Below, piece after piece: positions 4,894 through 55,200 of a stretch of 64,000 nt of DNA (its first letter is position 1; the number at the start of each line of letters is the position of its first letter). The DNA comes from Branchiostoma floridae (Eukaryota > Chordata > Leptocardii > Amphioxiformes > Branchiostomatidae): assembly GCF_000003815.2 (NCBI RefSeq), contig NC_049980.1:24487808-24551807 (forward strand). Direction: 5' to 3'. The translations under genes were made by a program, and so were the position numbers. Under the pieces are notes generated by a model, which had not been told where the DNA came from, did no database searches, and saw only the letters and a list, made by a program, of their open reading frames with translations.

Positions 4894-7800
4894 CTACAAA
4901 TGAGACAAACCGAAAAGGTAAATATACATTGCANNNNNNNNNNNNNNNNNNNNNNNNNNNNNNNNNNNNNNNNNNNNNNNNNNNNNNNNNNNNNNNNNNN
5001 NNNNNNNNNNNNNNNNNNNNNNNNNNNNNNNNNNNNNNNNNNNNNNNNNNNNNNNNNNNNNNNNNNNNNNNNNNNNNNNNNNNNNNNNNNNNNNNNNNNN
5101 NNNNNNNNNNNNNNNNNNNNNNNNNNNNNNNNNNNNNNNNNNNNNNNNNNNNNNNNNNNNNNNNNNNNNNNNNNNNNNNNNNNNNNNNNNNNNNNAGTGT
5201 ACTTCCCGGTCACATGACCTGAGCCATCACACCCAGGGGTGGGACATTTCCTGGTGCAGACACAGAGAGGAACGAGGTTGAAGAGTATGAGTTACATTTC
5301 CTCACATTTCTGTCAAAGATAACTAACAAACACTGTATAGCATACTGTACAGCAACAGCAGAGACATCTCGTGTTAAGTATTTTCTATCCCTTGACATAT
5401 GATGGGAATTTTCTGTCCCTATCCCAGGTGCCATTACCCTGTAAGGTCTTATAATCAAAGTATTTTCTATGCTTTTTTTCCATCTGTCTCTTTCAGATAT
5501 CTTATATCAAAGGTGCAAGACTCTCCCATACAAAAAATTTGTTACATTTCCTTTGGAGGACCCTCTTACAAACAACACCGGTTCAGTACTTGAATTTATA
5601 TCAGTATAGAGTGTAGTGTTTAGTCCATGTGTTAGTGTTACTGACTTTTCCCCAGGTGATCTCTCGGCTTGTGAGTCTCTCTCATCAGAGGTGGACTTGG
5701 ACCCTCTGCCTGGACCCAGTCTGTCCTGCAGGGCCGACTCCTTGTTCATGTTCAGCTGGGAGTACGGGCACCCAAAGGAACTGAAATGATGAAAAAAAAG
5801 TATGAAGACAATCATTGTTGTCAGAACCAATCTTCAATTCAAATGATCAACACTTCAACTACACATGTACATCGTATAAGATTTATTGACCTTCACAAAA
5901 AGCCTCAAAAGATAATTTTGTCATTAAGCTGCAAATAAAATGCATTTAAACAGTACAAAAGAAAAAAATAAAAAAATTCTGATATAAGTAATGGAAAGCA
6001 ATGGATTTCTATCAAATCAAAACAAATGAAAGGTACATAACCTGTGATGTCCAGAATACTTGGGTCCCTTGATGTGACCAATCCCTTTGCAGCCTGGAGT
6101 TGGGCATCCAATTTGCCTGTTGAACACAATGTCATGTTCATGAGTGCCCCCTACTGGCCCATACACAATCTGCAGGCATTGACCAAAGATTAAGCAATGA
6201 TTCTTTTACAGTTACTGGTGCTACACTACATGTATCCATGGACTTTATGAATATGTGATAGAAATAAATGTCTTTAAGTAGTATAGGAAATAAATACTCA
6301 CCCATCTGTATCCAAGTCTGCTGGAGCTGTGAGGAACAAAATGGAACAATACCTGATTACTGAAGTGTATGATAGTCTAATAAGTGTATATAGTCTAAAT
6401 TGTACTAAGTAGTCGCTGATGAGACAAAATCATTTTGTTGTCAAAGATACTATGTGGGTGTACTTATTCCAAAGACAAGCAGCACATTCCCGATCAACGT
6501 CTTTATGTTTGTAAAAGCTTTTTGACAAAATTACACTTCTCCTGCTGTCAAGTACTGCAGAATAGGTCAAACATGTCCCTGTGTTTCATTGTTAAGTTCC
6601 AACAGAAGGGTTCTTACACTCACAAGGTGGGCCCTGTATGGGGTGGCCAGTTTTAGCACACCAGGTGGCAGGGTGCATGTCTGGGCTGTCTGCGTCCTCC
6701 CAGTAGTCATAGATGTCAGCCCAGCCGTCAAAGTGGACCTTAACACGAGCCTCATCAGTGTCGACTATGGTGGCAACACGGATCAGCGAAGGGTTGCGTC
6801 TGTCCACTGCTTCTATTTTGTACCCTTTCAGGAAGCCATGAGTGACTTTCTGCTGGAAACAAAGAATTGCTTTTAAACAAGATAACAGAAAATCATAACC
6901 AAGAAACATCCATCCTTTTTTTGATACTGAAAGAGTGCATACAAGAAACAACTAATGAGACAGATAAGTGTAAATTTCAAACTTCAATATCCATTATTCA
7001 GAACTTGAACATTCTACTTATAGAAACATTCCTGAATTTGAGCAGTAATTCCACTTCAGTACAATCACACTATACATGTACAGTGGAAGCCGCTTAATTG
7101 CACACCCCATTTGACAGTGTATTTCGTGCAATTATCCGAATAGTGCAACAAAGCGAAGTTATTAAGCTGGACCGCACCACCATGGGATTTGGGGATTTCG
7201 TGCAATTATCATCATTACAGGTTGCTCGACTCATATCTTATATCATAAAGCATCCTCATTTGTGTTCAGGAAGACTAATGAACTCTTAGCTCAGCTGAAT
7301 TAATGCAAAAATTACACTGTACAACGTATGTGACTGGTACTAACCGGTTTGAATGCCCGTGCAGGGACAGCCTGAGACTTGGTCTGTGTGAGGTAGTCCT
7401 GCCAGGTGAAGTGCTCGGGTTCTGGGTAATCTAAACAACAAGAAAAACATTTCAGTTTTAGTCTGAGGAAAGCACATTCCTTTAAAGTAACTCAAATAGA
7501 GAAGAATTACATTGACAACGCTTAAATTGTGGTGTACCCTACACATATCAAACTGGAAGCTGCAATTTATTGATCTAATTCTAATATGTGCCTGTACTGA
7601 AATATGAAACTCCCCTCCACTGCAATCATCACAAATAAAGGTTTTGTTTTCCACCTGATCATCAATTAACATAATGTACATGTTAATAAGACTCATCTAA
7701 TTCATCATGAGTGTTATCTGATAGCTTGAGATTGAGACACGTGGATGAACCACTCACCCTTAGGAGGAGTGAGGATGTTCCCGGTTTCCTCGCACCAGCC

Positions 7801-52200: not shown

Positions 52201-55200
52201 ATGTGCTAACACTCCAAGAAGAAATTCTCCACAGTTCATATACACACGTAACAAGAAATTTCAAAAGCCCTTACAGGAAATATGCAGACAATCAACTGCA
52301 CGAGCATGGATATTCAAAATTATGGGTACACATGCGTACAAGAAACCAGCATGTTTTAATTATGCATAAGCTTACCAGTCAACTCATGCGCTATTTTTGG
52401 TTGACCCATCTGATGATAACTAACTATACAAAGCAGGAAGCTATAGAACTTTGACCCTCACCTTCTGTGAGAATTCCGGTTGCTGTTGACATGTCCTCTT
52501 CCTGTACAGCCTGGTGTGGGGCATCTGTGAAGGAAAAAACTGCCATCAAACTCTGACAAAACTGCGCAACTCCTTACTTCATAACCAATAAAGATGACAT
52601 AATCCTCTTTTGAATACGCGTCTACAAAGTTTTTCTTTTGTTCTAGAAAAATTCTTGTATCAAATTTAGTACACCTGATGGAGTGCCACAGTGGTCAAGG
52701 AACATGGTTATAATAAAATTTTGTGTGCACCAGTCAGTAAGTTGCCCAACATAATCTAAAAAGACTTCTTTCAGTTCAATTTAATGATTCTGGACCTACA
52801 CAAATTAACAAATGTAAACGTATGTATTTCTGCATGAGTGTGTCAAATTCTCAAAGTTCAAATTCTGAGATATAACAGGTTTAAGTATATATGAAGAGAA
52901 GAAGTGTTAGGAGAAGTATACAAGAGCAGAAATGGTTGGCTCATACTCACTTCAGCACATTCTCATGTGCAGCCAACACTGGAAGAGTGGAACAGACAAG
53001 GCAACTGGAGTAAGTGGGAGGTTAGAGAGAGCAGAGAAAAGTTGGGGTGGACACTTACGTTTCTTTGTTTGTACTGCACAATGATTCGGCCACTGTGGAA
53101 ACATGTAAGATGATGGACTTCACAATCTTGTTAGGAACACTATTATGGTGACAGGCAAAGTATCTGGGTGCCATGTCATACATATTACTGGAACATAGTG
53201 TCATTTACAAGGAAACCAGCCACACTTTTCTATCCTTCTTATACAATTGAACAGCTTCTATCAACACGCAAGCACACAACTCACGTTTCTATAGAAATAG
53301 TGACTCCATAGCAAAGCTAACTGAAAACAGCCACCAGTGGGTACGGTACATATTATGGTAAAATTTTATTTCAAGTTTAAATGCTCTCTGCTATGACAAA
53401 AATCAATGTCTTCAAGAAAACTATTCTTCAATCGGAGGAAATTGTTTTCCCTTTCACTGCCCAATACTTTAACAGGTTGATTTAACTGAAATCTTTGATT
53501 TCTTTTTAAAAGCAATCAGTGACAAGAAAAGCCAAGATGAAACTTACACTCAGGTGGTATCTTGTCTTTGTGAGGACATCCTGACAGACTGATGAATAGA
53601 AAAACAGGTATGACATATAAGTAACAACACAGTAGAACAATTGGAAATGTAACAAATGTATGAATGTGAAGAAATACAAAAAGAAATGCTTGCTGTCATA
53701 ATTTCACAAAAATATTCATTCAATTTACCGCTATAAATCACACTTAGGCAATTGAGCAGTTAATCACTAGAATTATCATACATTTCACAATAACAGATTA
53801 TCAGAAAATACACACAGAAAAAACAATATCATACACACCTTCTATGGTGAGAGTACAGCCCTGTCACATGACCCGTACCATTGCAGCCTGGCGTCGGACA
53901 CTTGCTGTCACCTTCTCTCTCTACAATACAGGAATTTTGGATCATGAAGCAATTACATACTTTTAAGCCCATTGTGTGTAATATCCACTTTGAGTCCACA
54001 ATGTGTAATAAGTTTATTTTTCTAAACACTTATCACCACTCCTGCAATTTTTCCTAAGTTCAACTAGGAAATCTCTTCACAGATGCCTTTGGGGCAGGCC
54101 AAGTCTGCTGTCACCTTATCTACAAAATGTGCCATCAAGCCTTTCATTTGTCGCTCCCTTAACCCTAAACTCACCTTTCCGTACAGTCCCTTGTGGAGTC
54201 TTTGGAACCTTTGGCACCACAAAGTCCTGCCTCGACTGTGGAACATTCTCCTTCGCAGACGGTGACACACCGACAGGGTTGATGGTTGTCAGACCCTCCG
54301 CTATCCGCTCAAGTTCCACTTTAGGTTTGATAACGGCGATGTTTTCTCTCGCCAGAGGGAGAGGCTGTTCCAATGTCGTCCTGGGAATCTCAGCACCTGT
54401 GATGTTTTCTACGGAGTAGGGTTTCCCAGCATAGTGGTCGTCCTTGATATCGGAGTGTTTGCAGGGTTCGGGGCTGGGAGGGGGGGAGTTGGCGGGAGAC
54501 GAGGATGTAGAGGATGACGACGAGCTGCTACTGTCTGCAACGAACCAGGAGGCTCAAATTAGGACAATTTTACAAGGTGAAAAATCATTGCCGTGAGCAG
54601 CAAGAGTGGTATTTCGACGTGAGCAGCAAGAATGATATTCTTTTATTGTTCTCTTACTTTTACTTTGTAGCTCTACATACGTGTTTCTAAATTCTAAACA
54701 ATAAGGCTGGCACCAAGAGATAGGAGCAAAATGCATCAAGAACTTCATCAAACCAATAAATTTTGGTACGTACGGCAGGTTAGATATACAAATGGTTAGT
54801 TTGGACATTTACAGCAAAAGGCAGTGGTGTTATTTCTCAGTTCTCTATGTTTCATACATCTTTGATATTCGATTGTGATGCAACCACTGGAATCTGAATG
54901 CTTAACCTTACACAAAAGGCATCAATAGCACAGTCCTGATAATACATACTAAAATGTACATGCTCTGAGGCTACTGCACAACTGTTAGTAAAATAAAAAT
55001 TTAAACATATGGATGGCAAACTGAAATCTAAGCACATACTCACACCAGCGCATACAACAGAACAAACAAAGTTGTGGTTAGAAGTCGAAGAAGCATATAA
55101 GTAAGCCAACGTCTGACCTCCTGATAACGACGTTTTCTAGCTCATCAAGGATATTTTTCCCGCATGCCACGGATTCAGGACTCCCCTTGACATTATGCCG

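Follow-up and report, generated by a model that had tools for sequence, protein, structure and literature searches.

A phase-2 Ser-codon intron shared by the CCHHC fingers of the neighboring MYT1 and L3MBTL genes of Branchiostoma floridae

Introduction

Symmetrical modules that were spread by exon shuffling among metazoan proteins (Patthy, PMC8001218) are a close described parallel to the zinc-finger exons considered here. The available part of that paper states that there is no evidence for exon shuffling among nuclear regulators. A second parallel is tandem duplication of domains within a gene, in which the repeated units share the place and phase of their introns; the MBT repeats of L3MBTL, with phases 0 and 1, are an example. 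Here, we analyze the CCHHC fingers of two neighboring genes, MYT1 and L3MBTL, in a window of 64,000 nucleotides (nt) from Branchiostoma floridae (the window being the whole stretch of DNA under study, on contig C2; the assembly holds 513 Mb in 431 contigs). We find that an intron interrupts the same Ser codon in fingers of both genes, which probably reflects common descent.

The locus is like the shuffled metazoan modules in that whole-finger units lie between same-phase introns in two otherwise unlike proteins. Set against the available part of the same source, it differs in that the finger is of class 2-2, belongs to nuclear proteins and is itself interrupted by an intron. Tandem duplication alone suffices for the six MYT1 fingers; the locus departs from that process in that the same intron place is also found in a second gene. 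Amphioxus MYT1 belongs to the same sequence family as the vertebrate MYT1/MYT1L/ST18 fingers (PDB 2mf8, 2cs8 and 1pxe). Intron positions change slowly, and one that two genes share is a rare sign of common descent. It helps with sequences such as a finger of 30 residues, which give a tree too little to work with, as the unresolved finger tree shows here.

Results

MYT1 and L3MBTL fingers are split at the same codon

Fingers were recognized by the spacing C-x4-C-x4-H-x7/8-H-x5-C and by PF01530 (cut-off 32.3 bits). Eight matches in the window exceed the cut-off, six in MYT1 and two in L3MBTL (35.8-63.2 bits), and the CCHHC spacing fits the window fingers, L3MBTL finger 2 being visible in its first part only. 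Both genes lie on the minus strand, as do all their exons given below, with MYT1 upstream (visible from about 42.4 to 56.2 kb of the window) and L3MBTL downstream (about 3.6 to at least 11.7 kb). Six MYT1 fingers are visible, together with the 3' half of finger 1 and the central domain (PF08474, 89.2 bits at 50370-51005), and MYT1 so has the central domain and seven fingers by which the gene is defined. All splice sites in both genes are inferred from sequence and reading frame; candidate junctions were ranked by generic splice-site weights under reading-frame constraints.

A first-pass annotation of the window had described three MYT1 finger exons of 63 nt (52462-52524, 47679-47741 and 44960-45022) and an L3MBTL exon of finger 1 (6042-6116), all phase 2-2. 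We recovered each of these as the best-scoring borders. The MYT1 exons carry the 5' parts of fingers 3, 5 and 6, in that order, and the L3MBTL exon, of 75 nt, is the 5' exon of finger 1. The 63-nt exons start one base before the first Cys and end AG|gt (the bar marks the splice junction), which amounts to one base, 20 codons and two bases.

When donor and acceptor are joined, MYT1 fingers 2, 3, 5, 6 and 7 give AG|T or AG|C, a Ser codon four residues before the last Cys. The annotation had counted six of seven MYT1 fingers as split: these five hold from both sides of the intron, whereas finger 1 is read from its acceptor only. In L3MBTL finger 1 the equivalent Ser codon is indeed split as AG|T, in phase 2 and four residues before the last Cys: exon 6042-6116 ends CAC AG|gt and joins T TCC TTT GGG TGC. 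The Ser codon follows H-H in this finger and H-R in the MYT1 fingers. Aligned with each other, the MYT1 and L3MBTL fingers thus carry an intron in the same codon and in the same phase. A literature search returned no printed description of this match among the matches listed, although the one broad query was nearly uninformative.

Chance estimates for the shared position and phase

We took the modeled L3MBTL stretch, with 12 introns in 1638 nt, as the base of the chance estimate. If all sites are equal, an intron falls at the named site with p = 0.0073; with AG sites only, the figure is p = 0.038 (introns occupy 5/132 AG sites, the Ser site included). The intron phases of L3MBTL run 2,0,1,0,1,0,1,0,1 through the FCS and MBT part, then 2,2,2 at the fingers. 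Over both genes, phase 2 is found at 13/15 finger junctions and at 1/14 junctions elsewhere (Fisher p 1.9e-5, with MYT1 fingers that are not independent). Because the MYT1 fingers descend from one another, the fair figure is that for L3MBTL alone, in which phase 2 occupies 3/3 finger junctions and 1/10 others (p = 0.014).

Junctions were assigned to the finger-associated class by hand, and two of those counted, at MYT1 finger 1 and at the start of finger 4, were taken from the acceptor side only. The count omits the junction from the finger 3 tail to the MYT1-domain exon (phase 2 in the best model, which would make the "elsewhere" class 2/15). In L3MBTL it omits the junctions that separate finger 2 from the SAM exon, which are unsure owing to an N gap. 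The sam1-sam2 junction was assigned phase 0 from translations, the best-scoring model having opened on a stop codon.

The third CCHHC gene is split elsewhere

A PF01530 search of the assembly, in which the best 48 candidates were scored, gave nine matches at E <= 0.001: the eight in the window and one in a KAT7-like gene on contig C1. KAT7 is therefore the only other clear CCHHC gene at that threshold among the scored candidates. With the E limit raised to 10, 12 extra weak matches appeared, one of which is the other half of the KAT7 finger. The gene on C1 looks like KAT7 (HBO1), a name read from its sequence. Its finger is of the same family and differs in having its intron in a Gly codon (G|GC) before the first His, in phase 1; there is no intron at the Ser-equivalent codon, where coding is continuous. 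Because the KAT7 finger is split elsewhere and uninterrupted at that codon, the Ser-codon position is common to MYT1 and L3MBTL and not to KAT7.

A human MYT1L intron points to an old site in MYT1

The available part of a report on human MYT1L, a minus-strand gene, lists the variant Arg569Gln (g.1915795) together with the splice donor variant g.1915791C>T (PMC5597252); His560Tyr, at g.1915823 in the same part, agrees with the same coordinate count. We took g.1915791 as the first intron base, because the variant replaces a G of the coding strand. With base 2 of R569 at g.1915795, these coordinates place the exon end at c.1709, two bases into codon 570. Relatives of MYT1L have the pattern H-x7-H-R-S, by which this codon would be the Ser after H568-R569. 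The split so derived for human MYT1L finger 3, one human finger only, would be a Ser-codon phase-2 split at the same codon as in amphioxus MYT1. Read from this human intron, the MYT1 intron site would predate the amphioxus-vertebrate split. In the same gene, codons 524 (finger 2) and 560 (finger 3) are separated by a genomic distance of 5202 for 108 coding bases, and therefore at least one further intron lies between them. For human L3MBTL, the available parts of PMC2933619 and PMC9262392 give exon numbers and no exon border in the finger.

The unit that could be duplicated is finger plus linker

The 63-nt exon encodes the stretch from the first Cys to the second His and Arg, plus two bases of the Ser codon, of the 25 residues from first to last Cys; the last zinc-binding Cys is encoded in the exon that follows. 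A single 63-nt exon thus preserves the frame without amounting to a finger. The idea that it served as a stand-alone cassette was dropped for want of the last Cys, and it presumably did not move alone, because it encodes no complete finger. Skipping one such exon would remove a finger in frame, which is a possible use of the symmetry.

A finger and its linker together form a phase 2-2 unit, which is contained in one exon in MYT1 finger 4 (48411-48533, 123 nt, no Ser intron) and divided over two exons both in MYT1 finger 5 and in L3MBTL finger 1. The best model makes the finger 3 unit 2-2 as well; MYT1 fingers 2 and 7 have 1-1 units, and finger 6 has a 2-1 unit. Because it has phase 2 on both sides, a 2-2 unit could be duplicated and leave the reading frame intact. 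One phase flanks the whole domain in L3MBTL finger 1 and in MYT1 fingers 4 and 5, as in a symmetrical module; the shared intron does not lie at a domain border but interrupts the finger, after the second His and before the last Cys.

The first-pass annotation had suggested that the finger module moved as an exon cassette. The same codon and phase in two genes and, as derived from coordinates, in human MYT1L finger 3, the 2-2 phase of whole units and the clustering of 8/9 PF01530 matches (E <= 0.001) in this window agree with that suggestion. The symmetric exon itself, which lacks the last Cys, is not supported as the cassette; duplication of the finger-plus-linker unit should replace the cassette wording. 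With unequal 5' borders and fourfold sites near background, neither recent movement nor a single mobile exon is supported.

Discussion

We favor common descent of an intron-bearing finger, because the intron is shared and the genes are close. The low probability of an exact-site coincidence in L3MBTL, the switch to phase 2 at its fingers, the human MYT1L intron and the different intron of KAT7 speak for it too. The Ser-codon intron (AG|Y, phase 2) was probably inherited by both genes from one intron-bearing ancestral CCHHC finger, the role of the neighborhood being left open. An old ancestral finger unit would already have carried this intron. The MYT1 fingers would then have multiplied by tandem duplication of the finger-plus-linker unit, with finger 4 losing the intron after duplication, and L3MBTL would have gained a finger by duplication of a two-exon unit, perhaps when the genes were already neighbors. 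The proximity of MYT1 and L3MBTL hints at an origin in one place. More specifically, the CCHHC finger could be a class 2-2 module that passed between MYT1, a neuronal transcription factor, and L3MBTL, a chromatin reader, by duplication in one ancestral neighborhood, which would survive in the present order, where a PCMT-domain gene stands between L3MBTL and MYT1; we regard this fuller account as tentative and rather doubtful. Alternatively, the common ancestor of the whole CCHHC finger family may have had the intron, which MYT1 and L3MBTL retained and KAT7 lost; the two neighbors would then have made no special exchange, and their proximity would be incidental. This proposal overlaps with common descent as to the origin of the intron, and we consider it plausible, if short of probable. 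The KAT7 finger is homologous and has an intron of its own, and the absence of the Ser intron from MYT1 finger 4, most simply a loss, fits as well; the cost is that, of three CCHHC genes in 513 Mb, two would lie close together by chance, which for about 50 kb has a probability of about 6e-4 (3 pairs x 2 x 50 kb / 513 Mb).

Several observations weigh against common descent, and some of them lend themselves to convergence, that is, to separate insertions in L3MBTL and in the ancestral MYT1 finger at a conserved Ser AGY codon, with AG preferred. The 5' borders stand at differing places, one residue before the first Cys in MYT1 fingers 3-6, four in L3MBTL finger 1 and two in L3MBTL finger 2, and the match is exact on the 3' side only. 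AG attracts introns and each finger offers few AG sites (five AG dinucleotides in L3MBTL finger 1 and 3 to 7 in each of the six split fingers), so that convergent insertion is possible. The donor of L3MBTL finger 1 scores poorly (-0.3), and the Ser codon of L3MBTL finger 2 is hidden by the N gap at 4934-5195. L3MBTL finger 1 has no blastn match to MYT1, and in the finger tree (14 rows), in which 0/11 inner branches are starred, it is unplaced, with a branch length of 1.45; MYT1 finger 2 groups with 1pxe (support 91/98, not starred). The split codon is AG|Y in both genes, and with one AG intron in each finger the coincidence is roughly 1 in 5; KAT7 also illustrates that a finger of this family can have its intron elsewhere. 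Nevertheless, only 5/132 AG sites of the L3MBTL stretch hold introns, and the adjacent L3MBTL junctions are phase 2 as well, like most MYT1 finger junctions. We therefore judge convergence at the AGY codon unlikely, and common descent of an intron-bearing finger the better reading. A recent local exchange between the neighbors in the amphioxus lineage, by gene conversion or exon duplication, is very improbable. Five blastn matches between the genes have E <= 0.001, all of them joining L3MBTL finger 2 to MYT1 finger exons, with 74-88% DNA identity to five such exons over 34-58 nt; a further five have E of 0.17 to 0.58. That similarity would suit an exchange, but the matches at E <= 0.001 are confined to finger exons, and the synonymous sites look near saturation or background: equal fourfold sites, summed by hand, number 19/50 for L3MBTL finger 2 and 11/40 for L3MBTL finger 1 against MYT1 fingers, versus 35/115 among the MYT1 fingers themselves.

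If outgroups agree, common descent would give a testable account of where the L3MBTL finger came from, and animal exon shuffling, in which class 1-1 modules are the rule, would have a class 2-2 exception; if they disagree, the locus would illustrate well how introns can be inserted convergently at an AGY codon. Should the module have passed between MYT1 and L3MBTL, nuclear regulators would provide an instance of module sharing mediated by introns.

Exon structure of the two genes

The remaining MYT1 exons complete the fingers as follows. Finger 1 is represented by its 3' exon (55388-56187), which starts |C] from an acceptor at 56187 (square brackets enclose split codons). Pattern searches of the window upstream of 56187 revealed no 5' half of this finger, which may lie in the N gap at 56841-57337. 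Finger 2 has a 5' exon at 53839-53920, which starts in phase 1 and ends in the Ser AG|, and a 3' exon at 53548-53588, which starts |T] and ends [T| at donor 53548, phase 1. A microexon of 28 nt at 52951-52978 (start counted by hand), [T|TG]LAAHENVL[AA|, passes from phase 1 to phase 2; it completes the linker between fingers 2 and 3, of which it encodes part, and gives finger 3 its phase-2 start. Donor 53548 was chosen for its fit to the microexon, and scoring without the microexon ranked other donors higher. The best of those, 53550 (score -6.3), was set aside because its scoring run omitted the microexon.

The 3' exon of finger 3, with its linker, occupies 51718-51831 and is phase 2-2 in the best model. 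For the 3' exon of finger 5 (47210-47290), donor 47210 was picked from the linker; 47159 scores higher, and both are phase 2. The 3' exon of finger 6 (44590-44654) ends in phase 1. Finger 7, like finger 2, begins in phase 1: its 5' exon (43978-44098) ends in the Ser AG|, and its 3' exon (43583-43674) ends in phase 1.

In L3MBTL, a small exon (6302-6326, phase 1 to 2) links the MBT repeats to the finger exons. The 5' exon of finger 1 reads [GG|G]QIGCPTPGCKGIGHIKGPKYSGHH[AG|, and its 3' exon with linker (5646-5780, 135 nt, phase 2-2) reads |T]SFGCPYS...SPGE[AA|. The visible 5' part of finger 2 (5196-5250, PF01530 37.9 bits) begins |G] and runs into the N gap. A DNA search of the assembly with 605 bases placed the finger 2 region at a single locus, with no second copy. 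L3MBTL finger 2 resembles four of the six MYT1 fingers at 13-14 of 17 residues, compared with 10 of 14 comparable residues for L3MBTL finger 1.

Two of the three MBT repeats were tested against Pfam and scored 95.2 and 104.3 bits. The FCS-like exon reached 21.8 bits against a cut-off of 26.6, and the exon taken for SAM, submitted as a single-exon query, had no Pfam match on its own. The three MBT repeats (6624-10156, minus strand) have a repeated exon pattern in which phases 0 and 1 alternate, an ordinary sign of tandem duplication within a gene. In an L3MBTL intron, tandem-like repeats around aagttaaccatgggaaagatcttttgta were noted by eye at 9380-9950.

Gene neighborhood

Between L3MBTL and MYT1 lies a PCMT-domain gene in the opposite orientation, on the plus strand, from 30960 to about 36148. 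Its first exon (30960-31292) matches PF01135 (PCMT) with 62.8 bits, the rest of the gene being traced by eye, and by its sequence the gene looks like a PCMTD-like gene. In the human genome, PCMTD2 presumably lies beside MYT1 and PCMTD1 beside ST18, and the amphioxus neighborhood resembles these pairs. The linkage may thus be ancestral. On the minus strand at 33775-34540, open frames that by eye resemble the end of a retroelement include a GIY-YIG-like stretch.

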